DNA of 43,827 nt from a virus. The notes below the pieces were generated by a model. It did not search any database. It worked only from the letters and a program-made list of their open reading frames with translations, and was not told the DNA's origin. Shown one piece after another: positions 1,151 through 39,159 of the stretch; within the stretch, counting starts at the first letter, position 1; each line of letters starts with the position of its first letter. The stretch is taken from IMG/VR virus record IMGVR_UViG_3300017598_001824, positions 1-43,827 of that record. One strand, written 5' to 3'. The position numbers and the translations under genes were made by a program.

Positions 1151-1704
1151 CAACAAAACCAACTAGATCTGAAAAAGGACAGTTCGTTAAGCCTATAGTC
1201 AAGGATGGCGATAACCCGCCTCCTGAGCCTGAAGATTTTTTCCGGTATGAGGGTAAAGATAAGGACATGTACTATCACTGGGCAGAAAACGATCCTCGTC
1301 GGATCCAAGCGCTCAAGAGAAAAGGGTATGAAGTCGATCCAGCAGCCAGTAGCGCCCAAGCTGCCAAAAAGGTTGAGGCTCAACGAGAGTACCTTAAGAA
1401 AACAATGCACGACCCAAGCACACCCAAGGAAAATCAACAGATGGCTAGAGAACTCCTTAACCGTATGGAGAACTCTCCTGCCGATACTGTCGTCAATATT
1501 CCCGGTCATGTGATGATGAGAACGTCGATGGAGAACCGTAGAAAGATTATGGAAGGCCGTGATGCGAAATCTCGTCAGATGGAAGATAAGATCGAGTCAG
1601 ATGTCCGTGATCTTAACAAGGCACTGCAACGGAGCGGGAAAGGCGGTATCAAAGCGTTTAGGGATATGTTCGATAGCATCAAAGACAGAGGAGATAGAAG
1701 ATGA
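1147..1704 (+). CDS. Uncharacterised protein between scaffold and major capsid
   Basis: 185 residues, strongly charged (many Lys, Arg, Asp, Glu), probably mostly helical, with no membrane segment or recognised motif. It starts at an ATG overlapping the scaffold stop, with GGAGGT upstream, and ends overlapping the capsid start. Its place between scaffold and capsid suggests a role in head assembly, such as an accessory scaffold or maturation factor. That is position-based inference only. Confidence 0.55.
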   Translation: MTTKPTRSEKGQFVKPIVKDGDNPPPEPEDFFRYEGKDKDMYYHWAENDPRRIQALKRKGYEVDPAASSAQAAKKVEAQREYLKKTMHDPSTPKENQQMARELLNRMENSPADTVVNIPGHVMMRTSMENRRKIMEGRDAKSRQMEDKIESDVRDLNKALQRSGKGGIKAFRDMFDSIKDRGDRR

Positions 1705-2633
1705 CAATTATTCGTGCCAACAACGAAAACCTGATGAAAGCCGGTCTGGATGAAGTCTTATTCTCCCCGTGGGAATTTGCTCAGCCAGATAGCGTGATCT
1801 CACAGGTTTTCAACATGGAGACTCATGATAGCGAGTTCAAGAAGTACATGACTATCAAAGGGTACCCCATGTTGACCCAAAAGAACGAAGGTGCTGCTTA
1901 CACTAACGTTGATGCTGGTGAAGCATGGTGGACCGAGCTGAAGCACATTGCTTACGGGATGTATAGTACCATTACTCATGAGGCTCAGGCCGATGAGCGG
2001 TATGGCGTAATCCGCCAGTTCCCGAACTCAATGAGAGAGTCAGCTGAAGCTACTATCAACTATCACGCATCCCGTATCTTCACAAACGGGTTTGCAGCAG
2101 TTCCTACTTATCAAACCTCAAACCGTGCGGCAGCTGAATACCTGTTTGATACGACTCACGATCTCAAAGGTGGTGGGACACAGGCAAACAGGCCATCAAC
2201 TGACGTCGATCTTACAGCCACCTCAATCTGGGCGGCAGTAAACGCTTTCTACGAAGTAACCAACGAGTCCGGGCTGCCGTGGGTTAAGTCTCCTAAAACG
2301 TTGCTTATCCCTCATCAGCTGCAACAGAAAGCGATTGAGCTCTTACAGTCTGAGAAGTACCCTGAAGATGCGAACAATGCCATCAACGCACTTCGGAAGG
2401 CAACCGAAATCAACATGGTCGTATGGCCATACTGGTTAGGTAGTGTCGATCCGGATGCTTGGTTCCTTTTGGCAAAACCCTCGGATCATCAGGTGAAGTT
2501 TGTCTGGAGAGAAAAACCCCGGACAAAGATGACGACAGAAGATCTGACCGATAACCTTCTCTACTACATCTATATGAGATACTCAACTGGATGGGCAGAC
2601 TACAAGGGGACTTACGGAACTTCTGGCGCCTAA
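1701..2633 (+). CDS. Major capsid protein, HK97-fold type
   Basis: 310 residues. The N-terminus (MTIIRANNENLMKAGL) has the look of the N-terminal arm of a broad class of phage major capsid proteins. Around residues 85-130 there is a block with ITHE, DERYG and a run of conserved small residues ending in FTNGF, typical of the spine-helix/P-domain region in Mu gpT-like and related capsids. The C-terminal half carries the Trp- and Tyr-rich stretch expected of the A-domain (about 235-300). It is preceded by scaffold and followed by a cement-like protein, which is the canonical order. The start overlaps the previous stop, with GAGGAGA upstream. Confidence 0.82.
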   Translation: MTIIRANNENLMKAGLDEVLFSPWEFAQPDSVISQVFNMETHDSEFKKYMTIKGYPMLTQKNEGAAYTNVDAGEAWWTELKHIAYGMYSTITHEAQADERYGVIRQFPNSMRESAEATINYHASRIFTNGFAAVPTYQTSNRAAAEYLFDTTHDLKGGGTQANRPSTDVDLTATSIWAAVNAFYEVTNESGLPWVKSPKTLLIPHQLQQKAIELLQSEKYPEDANNAINALRKATEINMVVWPYWLGSVDPDAWFLLAKPSDHQVKFVWREKPRTKMTTEDLTDNLLYYIYMRYSTGWADYKGTYGTSGA

Positions 2634-21715: not shown

Positions 21716-24556
21716 GTGGCAAACAGCTGGGATACAATACCTCCAACAAGCACAAGTTTAGAATGCGATGAAAGCCAGATCGCAAAGTATGAGGCGAAAA
21801 GGTACTATAGACCAGATCCGTCTTTCGACCCTGAAGCTATTATAGCGGCAGGTGGAGATTGGGTAAAGGAACTAAACGATAACTATCTAATTAGCGAAGA
21901 GGTTGTCTCTTATAGCTACATCACAAACATAAAAGTTAAGAAGGTTAAAGATGAAGACTTAAGCAAACGAACTCCGAGTTCTCTGTTTATAAAAAAAGCA
22001 GCAGGTATTGGTTCTCAACAAGCATGGGAAGGTAGGTTTTGGGGCGCTCCAGTACAACACAAGATTGGTGGTGAGTGGTATCAGGTTAATTTTGCTACAA
22101 TTACAAAAGATGCTTGGAATGCACAGGTCGGAGAAGATAAGCAGATAACAAGTATTATACTGAGCGTTGGGGCTTCTTCGGCATTCGAGTCAGACTCAGG
22201 TGGAGATGGTGCAACACATTACTCAGTTTGGTCTGTGAGCCCTTTGGTATGGTTTGGAAAACATTGTCAGGCTACAAACGTAGCTGTCTATGATATAGAT
22301 TACATCGGTGTTGGGAGTAGTTGGCAGTTCCTGTACGGCGTTGTCTATAACGTAAATGTAAGGAGAGGATTTATTCCTTTCGACACTTCTACTTTGCCAG
22401 CAGATATTACGATAGATTCCGCAACAATTCGGCTAAGAATATATGGCTCTTCTGGTTCACCAAAAGATATAGGATTAGTTCAAACAACACAGGTTGACCC
22501 AGAAGCTTTAGCTGCTGCCGACCATCAAAAATGTGGTTCATGCCCTTCCCCCCCGACAGAGGGAGCATCAAGGATACAAGCTCCGTCAAGTGGCTATAAT
22601 ACCTTTACCCTAAACTCAACAGGAGAAGGATGGATAGTTCACGATGAAGTAAATTTTTCACGTTTTGGGGTCAGAGGTAGTCATGACATGGATGACAGCT
22701 CTGGTGGCACCCTTCACAACGAACTTGTGACATTCTATTCTGCTAATTACGCAACAGCAGCTTACAGACCTCTTCTAACAGTAGAGTATACAGAGGGTGA
22801 GTCCTCTTCTTCAAGCTCTTCATCTTCCTCAATATCATCGAGCAGCAGTATATCTTCATCGTCCTCCTCTTCTTCAATTTCCAGCAGCTCATCGTCCAGT
22901 TCAGTCTCGTCCTCTTCCTCAAGCAGTAGCATGTCATCCTCATCGTCCAGCTCTTCGATAAGTAGCTCATCGTCCTCGTCGTCGATCAGCAGTAGTTCCT
23001 CCTCATCCAGTATTTCGTCATCAAGCAGTTCGTCGTCGATCAGCTCGTCATCGTCAAGCAGTAGTATTTCTTCGTCGAGCTCTTCGTCATCTAGCAGCAT
23101 ATCATCCAGCTCCTCATCTTCATCAAGTTCAATATCGTCCAGCAGTAGCAGCTCGTCAATCTCAAGCTCTTCCTCATCTTCCTCGATCAGTAGCAGTAGT
23201 AGCTCTTCTTCCATCAGCAGTTCATCGTCCAGTAGCTCCATATCCTCGTCGTCATCATCGAGCAGTATCTCCTCATCATCGTCATCAAGCAGCATTAGTT
23301 CATCAAGTTCCAGTAGCTCTATATCAAGCAGCTCGTCATCAAGCAGTATATCGTCGTCGTCCTCGTCGAGTTCAATATCCTCTTCCTCAAGCAGCTCGTC
23401 AATCTCAAGCTCTTCATCCAGTAGCTCGATTAGCAGTAGTTCATCCAGCAGTAGCATATCATCCTCGTCATCGAGCTCGTCGATCTCGTCGTCCAGCAGT
23501 TCTTCGTCGATCAGCAGCTCATCCAGCTCCAGCTCAATATCGTCGAGTAGCAGTAGTTCCTCGATCAGCTCGTCAAGCTCTTCGTCGTCAATCAGTAGTT
23601 CCAGCTCGTCAAGCTCAATTAGCTCCTCGTCGTCCAGCTCGTCAATATCGTCCAGCAGCAGCTCATCATCGATCAGCAGCAGCTCGTCGTCGTCGAGTAT
23701 TTCTTCATCCAGTAGTTCCTCGTCGATCAGCTCGTCGAGTAGCAGTTCTTCGATCAGCAGCAGCAGCAGCTCGTCCAGTATTAGCTCCTCGTCCAGTAGC
23801 TCGTCCATCAGCTCCTCATCATCCAGCTCCTCAATTAGCAGCAGCTCGTCCAGCTCTTCGTCGTCTATTAGCTCGTCCAGCAGCAGTAGTTCCATATCTT
23901 CTTCGTCGAGCTCTTCCTCCTCCAGTATTAGCTCGTCCAGCTCCAGCAGTAGTATTTCCTCCTCTTCAAGCAGCAGCAGTATATCGTCCAGCTCATCGTC
24001 ATCATCGTCCAGTATCAGCAGCTCCTCGTCGAGCAGCAGTATATCGTCATCATCATCATCATCCAGTAGCAGCATTTCTTCATCCTCCTCATCCTCGTCG
24101 ATCAGTAGTTCGTCCTCATCCAGTTCAATCAGCTCAAGCTCATCGTCGAGCTCTATCAGCAGCTCGTCATCGTCATCATCATCATCGATCAGTTCGAGCA
24201 GCAGCAGTTCATCGTCATCATCCAGCAGTAGTATTTCAAGCTCCTCATCTTCCAGCTCAATATCCTCCTCCTCGTCCAGTAGTAGCTCATCGATCTCTAT
24301 GGGTGAGGCGCTTTATATTATCCACGTTCAACATAAAGAGGAGGCAAAAGTTGCTCTTTGCTATCAAAGCGACGATAATGTAACGGTATCCCTTGAGGAG
24401 GAGATAACCGCTAAACCTACATATGAAGAGGAGGGCCCTATGCAAATAGACTATGAAGAAGAGGTTAACTCAAAGATGAAGTTTGAGGAAGATCTCACAA
24501 TAACCGCAACATACGAAGAAGAGATAAACGTTCAACCAGAATATTATGACAGCTAA
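21716..24556 (+). CDS. Serine-rich-repeat tail/adhesin-like protein
   Basis: 946 residues from GTG 21716, with AGGAG 6 bases upstream. Residues 1-200 are unassigned and mixed. About 205-362 resemble a DNRLRE-type beta-sandwich stalk domain (GFIPFDTSTLPADITIDSA, ending RPLLTVEYTEG), a fold seen in surface proteins and carbohydrate-binding modules. Residues 363-861 are 499 codons of Ser/Ile repeats, mainly units of Ile plus eight Ser, with a few longer units and rare Val or Met in place of Ile. Residues about 862-946 hold an acidic decapeptide repeat. There is no signal peptide. Position among tail genes and after a glycosyltransferase island suggests a glycosylated stalk linking an N-terminal anchor to a C-terminal tip. 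Confidence 0.65.
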   Translation: MANSWDTIPPTSTSLECDESQIAKYEAKRYYRPDPSFDPEAIIAAGGDWVKELNDNYLISEEVVSYSYITNIKVKKVKDEDLSKRTPSSLFIKKAAGIGSQQAWEGRFWGAPVQHKIGGEWYQVNFATITKDAWNAQVGEDKQITSIILSVGASSAFESDSGGDGATHYSVWSVSPLVWFGKHCQATNVAVYDIDYIGVGSSWQFLYGVVYNVNVRRGFIPFDTSTLPADITIDSATIRLRIYGSSGSPKDIGLVQTTQVDPEALAAADHQKCGSCPSPPTEGASRIQAPSSGYNTFTLNSTGEGWIVHDEVNFSRFGVRGSHDMDDSSGGTLHNELVTFYSANYATAAYRPLLTVEYTEGESSSSSSSSSSISSSSSISSSSSSSSISSSSSSSSVSSSSSSSSMSSSSSSSSISSSSSSSSISSSSSSSSISSSSSSSSISSSSSSSSISSSSSSSSSSISSSSSSSSSSISSSSSSSSISSSSSSSSISSSSSSSSISSSSSSSSISSSSSSSSISSSSSSSSISSSSSSSSISSSSSSSSISSSSSSSSISSSSSSSSISSSSSSSSISSSSSSSSISSSSSSSSISSSSSSSSISSSSSSSSISSSSSSSSISSSSSSSSISSSSSSSSISSSSSSSSISSSSSSSSISSSSSSSSISSSSSSSSISSSSSSSSISSSSSSSSISSSSSSSSISSSSSSSSISSSSSSSSSSISSSSSSSSISSSSSSSSSSISSSSSSSSISSSSSSSSISSSSSSSSSSISSSSSSSSISSSSSSSSSSISSSSSSSSISSSSSSSSISSSSSSSSISSSSSSSSSSISSSSSSSSSSSSSSISSSSSSSSISSSSSSSSSSISMGEALYIIHVQHKEEAKVALCYQSDDNVTVSLEEEITAKPTYEEEGPMQIDYEEEVNSKMKFEEDLTITATYEEEINVQPEYYDS
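22802..24298 (+). repeat. 499-codon Ser/Ile repeat tract
   Basis: Every codon is Ser except for regularly spaced Ile (all three Ile codons are used) and single Val and Met. The dominant unit is nine residues, so roughly fifty units. All six Ser codons (TCN and AGY) are intermixed, so the DNA lacks long perfect repeats although the protein is nearly perfectly periodic. Confidence 0.9.
24383..24553 (+). repeat. Acidic decapeptide repeat at the C-terminus
   Basis: From residue 890 the sequence has a 10-residue period of the form x-x-x-(L/Y/F)-E-E-(E/D)-x-x-x, for example KPTYEEEGPM, QIDYEEEVNS and TATYEEEINV, in about five copies plus a degenerate end (QPEYYD). Alternating hydrophobic and acidic residues suggest beta-strand stacking. 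It may form the tip of the serine stalk. Confidence 0.75.
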
Positions 24557-24867: not shown

Positions 24868-27468
24868 ATGGCAAACGATTTTAGTACCGATCCACAATGC
24901 GTATCTGTCTGGACGTTTAACGGGCAGAATATGGATGATGATCGAGGTGGAAACGATCTAACGGAGAATGGGGTACCTACCTATGACGGGTCTGATAAGC
25001 AGGAAGGGGCTTACAGCGTTGATCTGGAGAGCGGGACTGGCCAGTGGGGGGAGATAGCAGATGGAAGCCTTGATGCTGATACTCCCGGGAAGGATGGGAA
25101 TGACCCCCAGTCTTTTACGATTTGCGGATGGTTTAAGGCAGAAAGCTTTCCTTGGCAGTCTTGTATCCTTTCTAAATGGGGAGGGGGATCAGGTAATCGA
25201 ACGTGGTCTCTAAATGTTCTGGGTACAGGTTATCCACGCTTTATGGTTGGGTATGATGGAGGAGATAGCGACTACAATACCAACCATGACGTACAGTGTA
25301 ATACAGGCCAATGGTATCATCTTGCAGGCGCCTTTAATCATAACACAAACGAGACAAAGATACGTTTGTGGACAGGTGTTTCAGCAACCACAGTCACAGG
25401 GGATCTTGGTGTAGAAACCTTTTCTCCTACAGCAGAGGAAGTTACTCTCGGCAAGTTTGGAGCAGGAAACTTTTACGATGGGTTGCTTGATGAAGTTGTC
25501 CTGTTCAGACGATATCTCCAAGACGATGAGATTGATGCTATAAGAGGAGGGACATACTCTGGTGGATCCAGCTCATCCTCCTCCAGCTCAAGCAGCTCAA
25601 TTTCCAGTAGTAGCATATCTTCATCGAGCAGCAGTATATCATCGTCCAGTAGCTCTTCGTCGTCTTCAATTTCATCGAGCTCGATATCTTCCTCTTCTTC
25701 GTCAATTAGCTCATCATCGTCCTCAATCAGCTCATCCTCATCTTCCTTCCCCGGTGCTGTATATGAGGAGTTTATAACTGGTGAAGATGAAGGCTGGCGA
25801 ACCAGAGAGCATACATGGAGAGCCCAGACGTTCACACCTTCTGCCACTCATGTCATTAACCGGGTCAATTTAAAGCTCCTTAGAAGCGGGCTTCCCGGAA
25901 CAGTAACGGCAAGCATAAGGGCGACAGACTCAGATGGGCTACCGACGGGAAGCGATCTTTGTTCTGGCACCTTTGACGGAGACGAAATTACAACAGATGC
26001 AGCTGGTGACTGGTACAGCTTTGACTTCGGAGCAGGCACGTATCTCTACGCATCTACTCTCTATGCAATAGTGTTCAGGGCTCCAGATGGCGGGCCGGAA
26101 AATTTTGTAAGGTGGCTGGTAGATCTAGCTGGTGGGTATGCTGATGGGAAGGTCTGCTACAGTGCCAACTCTGGAGTGGGATGGAGCGGTCCAACGCTTC
26201 AAGACTTCCTTTTTCAAGACATAGGGTGGGACTCATCCTCATCCAGCTCCTCGTCCTCTAGCTCTTCAATTTCAAGCTCATCGAGTAGTAGTTCGTCTAG
26301 CAGCTCAATTTCATCCTCATCTTCATCCATATCTTCATCCTCGATCTCATCCTCATCAATCAGCTCAAGCTCAATCAGCCTAGCTGACGTTGCCTTTGAC
26401 GAACACTTTGAGGCAGATCCGGGATATGACGAGACATGGAGTGAGGGAGAGACGGTTAATACTGGCTGCACGCTAGACGAAGATCAGGCTTCTGCTGGTG
26501 TAGCTGGTTCTCCTACAGACTGGCAGGTTCAGTGCCTTAAGGTATATACCGATGGAGATGCTACTCGTTACGCTTATGTTGAACACATCTTTGATCGTCC
26601 GATATCTACCTCTCACTTCCGGTTTGATGTCATTCTTGAGGCAGAAACACTCTCAGATGGCGAGACGATCAATATCTTCAAGTGCTTTGATACGGACGGG
26701 AACATACTCTGGTCGTCAAGCATCGATCAGCAATCAAGCATCCTCCGCCTCAAGAACTCTATCTATTACGATGGATCAGAGTCTGCTTACGCTTTCTCAC
26801 CTATCTCTGTGGATACCCGGTATGTCATTGAGGTGGAATGGGATACTGTCCTTGATGTCTGGGGACTGAGGGTAAACGGAACGCTTATTGAGTCTGGCAG
26901 CTTGTTTATCCCGGCAACCACACGGTCGCTAAGGAAGATCCGGGTAGGTGCAGGAGATACAGCAACGTTTGGGGCAACGGCTACTTTCTATATCGACAAC
27001 GTACTGCTAACCCAGTCCGATTTTAACTACTCCTCCTCGTCCTCATCATCGATCTCAAGTTCCAGCAGCAGCAGTTCAGAATCCAGTTCTGTTTCCTCCA
27101 GTTCCAGCTCGTCAAGTATTTCGTCGTCATCATCGTCGATATCCTCGGTGAGTAGCTCGTCATCAACAAGCTCCTCATCCAGTAGCATATCGTCAAGCAG
27201 CAGTTCTTCAAGTAGCAGTATATCGAGCTCCTCGTCATCTATCTCGTCGTCATCCAGCTCGATTTCATCAAGCTCGATCAGTAGTAGCAGCTCTTCGATC
27301 TCGTCATCGTCAATTTCGTCCTCGTCGATCTCGTCGTCATCAATATCATCGTCATCCTCTTCGATCTCATCCTCGTCTTCATCTTTGTCGAGCTCGTATT
27401 CGATGGCCTTAACCTATAAAGTCTGGATACTTACGCCAGCAGGATGGGCAAATGTGGCCTCGGTATAG
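24868..27468 (+). CDS. Multi-domain beta-sandwich fibre with Ser/Ile linkers
   Basis: 866 residues. Domain 1 (about 5-232) is LamG/concanavalin-like (VSVWTFNGQN, QSFTICGWFKAE, WYHLAGAFNHNTNETKI). Domain 2 (about 294-455) is a jelly-roll-like domain (WRAQTFTPSATHVINRVNL, ATSTLYAIVF-like region). Domain 3 (about 505-720) is again lectin-like (SHFRFDVILEAE, RYVIEVEWDTVLDVWGLRV, ATFYIDNVLL). They are joined by pure Ser/Ile linkers at residues 234-293, 456-504 and 722-843. A short tail (TYKVWILTPAGWANV) ends the protein. Several sugar-binding-like heads on flexible serine stalks suggest a host-recognition protein. The linkers share composition with the neighbouring serine protein. Confidence 0.65.
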   Translation: MANDFSTDPQCVSVWTFNGQNMDDDRGGNDLTENGVPTYDGSDKQEGAYSVDLESGTGQWGEIADGSLDADTPGKDGNDPQSFTICGWFKAESFPWQSCILSKWGGGSGNRTWSLNVLGTGYPRFMVGYDGGDSDYNTNHDVQCNTGQWYHLAGAFNHNTNETKIRLWTGVSATTVTGDLGVETFSPTAEEVTLGKFGAGNFYDGLLDEVVLFRRYLQDDEIDAIRGGTYSGGSSSSSSSSSSSISSSSISSSSSSISSSSSSSSSSISSSSISSSSSSISSSSSSISSSSSSFPGAVYEEFITGEDEGWRTREHTWRAQTFTPSATHVINRVNLKLLRSGLPGTVTASIRATDSDGLPTGSDLCSGTFDGDEITTDAAGDWYSFDFGAGTYLYASTLYAIVFRAPDGGPENFVRWLVDLAGGYADGKVCYSANSGVGWSGPTLQDFLFQDIGWDSSSSSSSSSSSSISSSSSSSSSSSSISSSSSSISSSSISSSSISSSSISLADVAFDEHFEADPGYDETWSEGETVNTGCTLDEDQASAGVAGSPTDWQVQCLKVYTDGDATRYAYVEHIFDRPISTSHFRFDVILEAETLSDGETINIFKCFDTDGNILWSSSIDQQSSILRLKNSIYYDGSESAYAFSPISVDTRYVIEVEWDTVLDVWGLRVNGTLIESGSLFIPATTRSLRKIRVGAGDTATFGATATFYIDNVLLTQSDFNYSSSSSSSISSSSSSSSESSSVSSSSSSSSISSSSSSISSVSSSSSTSSSSSSISSSSSSSSSSISSSSSSISSSSSSISSSSISSSSSSISSSSISSSSISSSSISSSSSSISSSSSSLSSSYSMALTYKVWILTPAGWANVASV
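25567..25746 (+). repeat. Ser/Ile linker 1
   Basis: Sixty codons of Ser with Ile at irregular intervals, joining the first LamG-like domain to the second domain. Mixed TCN and AGY codons are used, as in the long tract upstream. Confidence 0.85.
26233..26379 (+). repeat. Ser/Ile linker 2
   Basis: Forty-nine codons of Ser and Ile joining domains 2 and 3 of the same protein. Units shorten towards the end (Ile after every four Ser). Confidence 0.85.
27031..27396 (+). repeat. Ser/Ile linker 3
   Basis: About 122 codons of Ser with Ile and rare Glu, Val, Thr and Leu, between the third domain and a short C-terminal tail. It is the least regular of the Ser tracts. Confidence 0.85.
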
Positions 27469-38632: not shown

Positions 38633-38821
38633 ATGCCACAGACTGCATCAGGCAAGAAGGCGTTGGCAAGCTTCATTAAACAGTATGGACCAAAGGAAGG
38701 AAGAAGGAGATACTACGCATCAATCGTCAAGGGGGCACCCGGATCTTCTAAGTGGGAAGGAAAAGGAGGCACGGGTACGCTTGCTAAAGCTAAGAGAACG
38801 TATAAGAGAACTCATCGATGA
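38633..38821 (+). CDS. Small conserved-type phage protein
   Basis: 62 residues, very basic: SGKKALASFIKQYG, KEGRRRYYASIVKGAPGSSKW, and ending KRTYKRTHR. The FIKQYG/YYAS block looks like a small phage family seen beside structural genes, but I cannot attach a function. AGGAGGGG precedes the ATG. The stop is overlapped by the next small gene. Confidence 0.55.
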   Translation: MPQTASGKKALASFIKQYGPKEGRRRYYASIVKGAPGSSKWEGKGGTGTLAKAKRTYKRTHR

Positions 38822-38943
38822 CTATTACAAGAGCAAACATCCCGCACCTCATGAGAAAAGGGTTAACCGTTGTAGGTAAGAAGAAAAAGCAGCGGAAGAA
38901 GAAACGGAAAAGGACTTCAGGCGCCGTGTCGGGAAGTTCCTAA
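38818..38943 (+). CDS. 41-residue basic protein with capsid-N-arm-like start
   Basis: A small frame beginning at an ATG that overlaps the previous stop (ATGA) and ending at TAA 38941-38943. Its first 16 residues, MTITRANIPHLMRKGL, match the major capsid N-terminus MTIIRANNENLMKAGL at 11 positions. The rest is a polybasic tail (KKKKQRKKKRKR) ending SGAVSGSS. The overlap with the preceding gene and the conserved start support real expression. Possible roles are a capsid-arm decoy, an assembly factor or a DNA-condensing peptide. Confidence 0.5.
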   Translation: MTITRANIPHLMRKGLTVVGKKKKQRKKKRKRTSGAVSGSS

Positions 38944-38958
38944 AGTCACTTCCCACAC
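38926..38958 (+). terminator. Hairpin at the convergent junction
   Basis: GGGAAGT (38931-38937) pairs with ACTTCCC (38948-38954), extended by GTGT/ACAC (38926-38929 with 38955-38958) across a one-base bulge. It lies exactly where plus- and minus-strand operons converge, so a bidirectional terminator is likely, although there is no long T-tract on either side. Its left arm overlaps the end of the 41-residue gene. Confidence 0.5.
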
Positions 38959-38964
38959 GTCTTG

Positions 38965-39159
38965 TCAGCCCTGTCCCTTATTCTCTTCCTTACCCGGTTC
39001 ATATCCCAGACACCACTTGTCCTCTTTATCGTCCTGTGGTGGCCTTCCATCGAACACACACTCGCCGGGCAGCTTCTGTACCCAGCCACCCGGACGATCG
39101 GAAGCGTGATATCCTAAACACATCTCTCTTTCTTTGTCGTAATGCTTACACGTCTTCAA
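38965..39159 (-). CDS. Small Cys-rich protein
   Basis: 64 residues from TTG 39159, chosen because GGAG lies 7 bases upstream; a longer version from another TTG at 39174 would overlap that site. Four Cys (in KTCKHY, EMCLGY, GECVF and KWCLGY) in two similar C-x-(G/H)-Y settings suggest one metal site. It is the last gene of the minus cluster. Function unknown. Confidence 0.5.
   Translation of the reverse strand: MKTCKHYDKEREMCLGYHASDRPGGWVQKLPGECVFDGRPPQDDKEDKWCLGYEPGKEENKGQG

Follow-up and report, generated by a model that had tools for sequence, protein, structure and literature searches.

A short viral reading frame with a capsid-like start and a polybasic tail: a candidate capsid-docked DNA-binding mini-protein

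The DNA described here, called the window wherever the whole analysed stretch is meant, is 43,827 bases long and forms a linear virus record in IMG/VR. It contains a 41-aa open reading frame (ORF) that directly follows a small basic gene and resembles, in its first residues, the start of the major capsid protein encoded in the same record. The features concerned are the following:

1701..2633, + strand: major capsid protein gene (Phage_capsid_4 / Mu gpT-like), start MTIIRANNENLMKAGL, the first 19 codons of which are resembled by the 41-aa ORF
38633..38821, + strand: 62-aa basic gene, MPxTxxGxK...YGxxxG...YYASIVKG, directly upstream of the 41-aa gene and overlapping it by ATGA
38818..38943, + strand: 41-aa ORF, MTITRANIPHLMRKGLTVVGKKKKQRKKKRKRTSGAVSGSS, with residues 1-19 capsid-N-arm-like, residues 21-32 polybasic and an SG-rich C-terminus
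38818..38874, + strand: capsid-N-arm-like segment, codons 1-19 of the 41-aa ORF
38878..38913, + strand: polybasic run of 12 residues, KKKKQRKKKRKR, codons 21-32 of the 41-aa ORF
38926..38958, + strand: RNA hairpin that spans the stop codon of the 41-aa gene, with its loop at 38938-38947

Re-reading of the ORF agreed with an earlier note on this DNA as to its position and length, and the twelve basic or Gln residues reported there were found at residues 21-32. The second half of the protein is nearly all lysine and arginine, the net charge of the protein is about +13.6 with no acidic residues, and AlphaFold, with moderate confidence (pLDDT 72), models a single helix across residues 10-33. Searches of curated families (Pfam at its cut-off, PHROGs at E < 0.001, and NCBIfam) gave no convincing match, and a literature search, with most subscription journals outside its scope, returned no paper describing a small basic protein that starts like a capsid. 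Taken as a whole, the ORF is very probably a real gene.

The upstream 62-aa gene is preceded by a ribosome-site-like AGGAGG and belongs to a large, widespread and unnamed family of small basic proteins, relatives of which are encoded in at least 207 viral stretches. Family members (38633-38821 in the window; loci L033-L112) are mostly about 45-60 aa long and follow the pattern MPLTxKGKKIMxSMKKQYGxKKGxxVFYASxNKG; those tested had no convincing match in Pfam, PHROG or NCBIfam. In MW202711, a weakly matching relative (E 5) sits between terminase and portal. Among the 80 family loci read, the 41-aa ORF stands next to the family gene only in a 79-kb contig, IMGVR_UViG_3300033145_001370 (hereafter G001), the capsid of which is 94% identical to that of the window. 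At another locus, an unrelated protein near the family gene (L106:2208-2879) starts MITRAQMPRQLRNKGG, close to the capsid-type motif. In the window a 124-aa gene, for which no relatives were found, lies upstream of the gene pair. The earlier note had placed the ORF in a helix-turn-helix (HTH) context: the directly upstream 62-64-aa gene is kept in G001, while the 124-aa gene is missing there, and the HTH context is thus not essential. Two further observations concern large ORFs of these contigs. The G001 homologue (L001:13-2991) of a 1982-aa protein of the window is interrupted after TPFG and before TWYFHNSR by an intein-like insert, which begins CVDDKTECLTDRGWKRYDEL, ends IFITGN and is missing from the window's protein, and two ORFs in the window (21716-24556 and 24868-27468) contain long (Ser)n-Ile repeat runs, reaching hundreds of residues in the first.

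The capsid gene is assigned to Phage_capsid_4 (E 9e-10) and also to Mu gpT. Its start is identical to that of the 41-aa ORF at 10 of 16 positions, and at 11 of 19 across the BLAST alignment; the 11 of 16 given in the earlier note is reached only if R/K is counted. The resemblance itself, as proposed in that note, stands above chance. When residues 2-16 of the ORF were shuffled, only 3 of 2,000,000 shuffles reached the observed 9/15 identities. Across all 1,559 start codons of the window, the ORF was second only to the capsid itself in likeness to the capsid start (9/15, BLOSUM 40; z = 6.3 from the mean and standard deviation of the scan), the next start having 4/15. The same test was applied to ten control phage genomes, several of which were covered in part, and there the best non-capsid start had z of at most 4.1. 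Profile-profile comparison aligned residues 1-19 of the ORF to capsid residues 1-19 with 91% probability, and neither this alignment nor BLAST found capsid similarity past residue 19 of the 41-aa protein. As regards a fragment or paralogue of the capsid (Phage_capsid_4 / Mu gpT), similarity beyond the N-arm is absent.

The N-terminus of the 41-aa protein carries the N-arm motif of the capsid clade, xIxRANxxxLMxxGL. This start motif is kept in nine capsids that are 62-100% identical to that of the window, and persists in altered form in relatives at about 26% capsid identity, reading MAITRAQLVKELEPGL in DSL-LC04 and MAISRSQLVKELEPGL in HTVC023P. A profile of nine capsid N-termini, run on 4,493 distinct ORF N-termini, placed the 41-aa ORFs of the window and G001 directly behind the capsids, with scores of 25.3 and 22.6 and a background from 1.9. 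In our judgement, it is highly likely that the resemblance is more than chance. The docking site of the N-terminus could not be placed on the AlphaFold model of the capsid, which has a pLDDT of 34.

In G001 the frame is present as MTIIRANIPHLMRKGLTIVEKKKKKRKKKQKKASGASSGSS (L001:3192-3317), 80% identical to the window copy and overlapping the upstream basic gene of 62-64 aa by ATGA, as in the window. The two copies differ by 12 synonymous and 11 non-synonymous changes, corresponding to a dN/dS of about 0.19, a rough ratio from one sequence pair, and by part, for the same pair, to 0.11 in codons 1-20 versus 0.33 in the tail. Third codon positions hold 13 of the 23 substitutions (Fisher p = 0.0004). 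The 41-aa frame is under purifying selection. The earlier note had set beforehand an unconserved frame, or a synonymous/non-synonymous ratio near one, as speaking against its proposal; what was found is a conserved copy with a ratio far from one. Homologue searches found strict homologues in G001 alone, and tblastn in phages with 41-aa and 20-aa queries gave no match, a result weakened by the complexity filter and the short queries. A corrected pattern scan recovered the window copy, plus one unrelated match in the genome contigs.

The hairpin over the stop codon has a folding energy below that of all shuffles in both the window and G001 (z -4.5 and -3.7). In the lower stem, three of four base pairs have both partners substituted between the window and G001, a comparison of two sequences with a weak shuffle control (62/500). 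Beyond the hairpin a convergent ORF, which has a relative in G001, ends at 38965. Rfam had no match at 38926-38958, and the surroundings showed neither a U-tract terminator after the hairpin nor a sigma-70 promoter beyond chance. The hairpin, placed between convergent genes, probably marks where the late transcript ends, and it likely acts as terminator or 3'-end protector.

A possible parallel was found in pelagiphage HTVC023P, whose record gives Pelagibacter HTCC1062 as its cultured host; there gp50 (QGZ17679.1) is a polybasic protein of 46 aa that begins MAITRGQISKQVEGKLRGARDEKKKKKR (MAITRGQISKQVEGKLRGARDEKKKKKRVEIAIKRKKNPLSRTFTA in the profile ranking). In the all-start test within that genome, gp50 comes closest to the start of the phage's own capsid protein (7/15, z 5.1), and its capsid-start profile score of 8.6 comes next after the two 41-aa ORFs; the profile took in the HTVC023P capsid, and the all-start test is therefore the cleaner one for gp50. 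Only the start motif and the basic tail are common to gp50 and the 41-aa protein, and tblastn with gp50 found gp50 alone. Such a small partner is lacking in most of the examined phages whose capsid belongs to this family: none with a capsid-like start was seen in the parts read of HTVC027P, 023Pt_psg01, DSL-LC04, MinM2 and others. The parallel is no more than suggestive, and gp50 may be unrelated.

Several explanations can be set against each other. The capsid-like N-terminus led the earlier note to consider a remnant of capsid duplication, which would be non-functional. Only four of the ten residues common to the ORF and the capsid share their codon, and this use of mostly different codons argues that there was no recent duplication of the capsid start. 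Further, frame and length are conserved at the dN/dS given above, making a decaying remnant unlikely, and the capsid similarity ends after residue 19. Codons and dN/dS together lead us to reject a recent duplication or relic, and a remnant is largely refuted and extremely improbable; either an old duplication or convergence may lie behind the likeness. Alternatively, the RNA could be the conserved element, comprising the stop-codon hairpin and the coupled start, with the peptide incidental. The three compensatory pairs and the low folding energies agree with this, but the hairpin spans the last codons only and the strongest amino-acid constraint lies in the N-terminal codons, and we regard this explanation as very unlikely.

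The same N-arm resemblance, together with the shortness of the protein and its lack of other domains, would also suit a decoy, as the earlier note had suggested, or an assembly regulator; the look-alike, by competing with the capsid N-terminus, would then restrict assembly or set its timing, while the tail would serve solubility or localisation. A decoy would not need the conserved 12-residue basic run, however, and the gene closes a late operon beside another basic protein; this function appears unlikely. The main rival is an ordinary small basic DNA- or RNA-binding phage protein, placed after the 62-aa gene and docking to no capsid, with a start of the type xI(T/S)RA(N/Q)(I/M) that recurs in several phage proteins. 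Its basis is the presence at 2 of the 80 loci (L096, L101) of a 52-aa basic ORF, MMSRANMGKQI..., which follows the family gene with the same ATGA-type overlap; the start of the different L106 protein and the match of gp50 to its capsid at only 8/16 positions point the same way. Against this, the match of the 41-aa ORF runs beyond RAN to LM..GL and residue 19 with the capsid spacing kept, and the all-start control leaves no room for ordinary chance. We consider an ordinary basic protein a genuine but lesser possibility.

Our preferred reading, to which we give a probability of roughly 0.4, is that the ORF is a real late gene for a minor head protein with a capsid-N-arm-like docking part and a DNA-binding tail, the product of which would function as a capsid-docked DNA-binding mini-protein. 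Among the roles named in the earlier note, an adaptor between capsid and DNA appears to fit the sequence best. Translation of the 41-aa gene is probably coupled to that of the upstream 62-aa gene, and the conserved hairpin at the gene end probably terminates the late transcript. Residues 1-19 would dock where the capsid N-terminus docks, either on the scaffold in the procapsid (putative gene at 197-1150) or on a neighbouring capsid subunit, and by docking the protein would be taken into the head, where the polybasic tail may bind DNA as an internal protein or counter-charge. We propose docking and DNA binding because of the analogy with SPP1 and T4.

In a broader and rather doubtful extension, some phages of this capsid family would encode a separate mini-protein in which a look-alike of their own capsid arm, fused to a polybasic DNA-binding tail, is a portable address into the shell; at least two distant lineages would have evolved or kept this two-part design. 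The sequences behind the finding come from two contigs, with gp50 as a single, weaker parallel. If the capsid arm is such an address, the 41-residue protein would be a head-targeted DNA-binding protein of very small size, and one class of tiny phage genes that are overlooked would be explained. The case also shows that genes so short, when their tail is almost purely basic, can be missed by gene callers and lost to BLAST filters.

Compared with known systems, HTVC023P gp50 is likewise a small polybasic protein and the best match in its genome to its own capsid start, but the match is weaker (8/16) and the neighbours are others, with a peptidase M15 gene upstream. In SPP1, the capsid N-terminus is helical in the scaffold-bound procapsid and later unfolds to an arm touching neighbouring capsomeres (PMC6813328). 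A capsid N-terminus can thus take part in binding the scaffold, there gp11, and afterwards in inter-capsomere contact, whereas in SPP1 the arm belongs to the capsid protein itself and there is no separate small arm-bearing protein. Internal proteins of T4 carry an N-terminal capsid targeting sequence, some 10 residues long, which takes them into the head while the prohead is assembling and is cut off by the head protease (PMC7697877). The 41-aa protein would share with the T4 internal proteins IPI, IPII and IPIII a short N-terminal segment that sends the protein into the head, a likeness proposed here from sequence; it differs in that the segment of the 41-aa protein resembles the start of its own phage's capsid.
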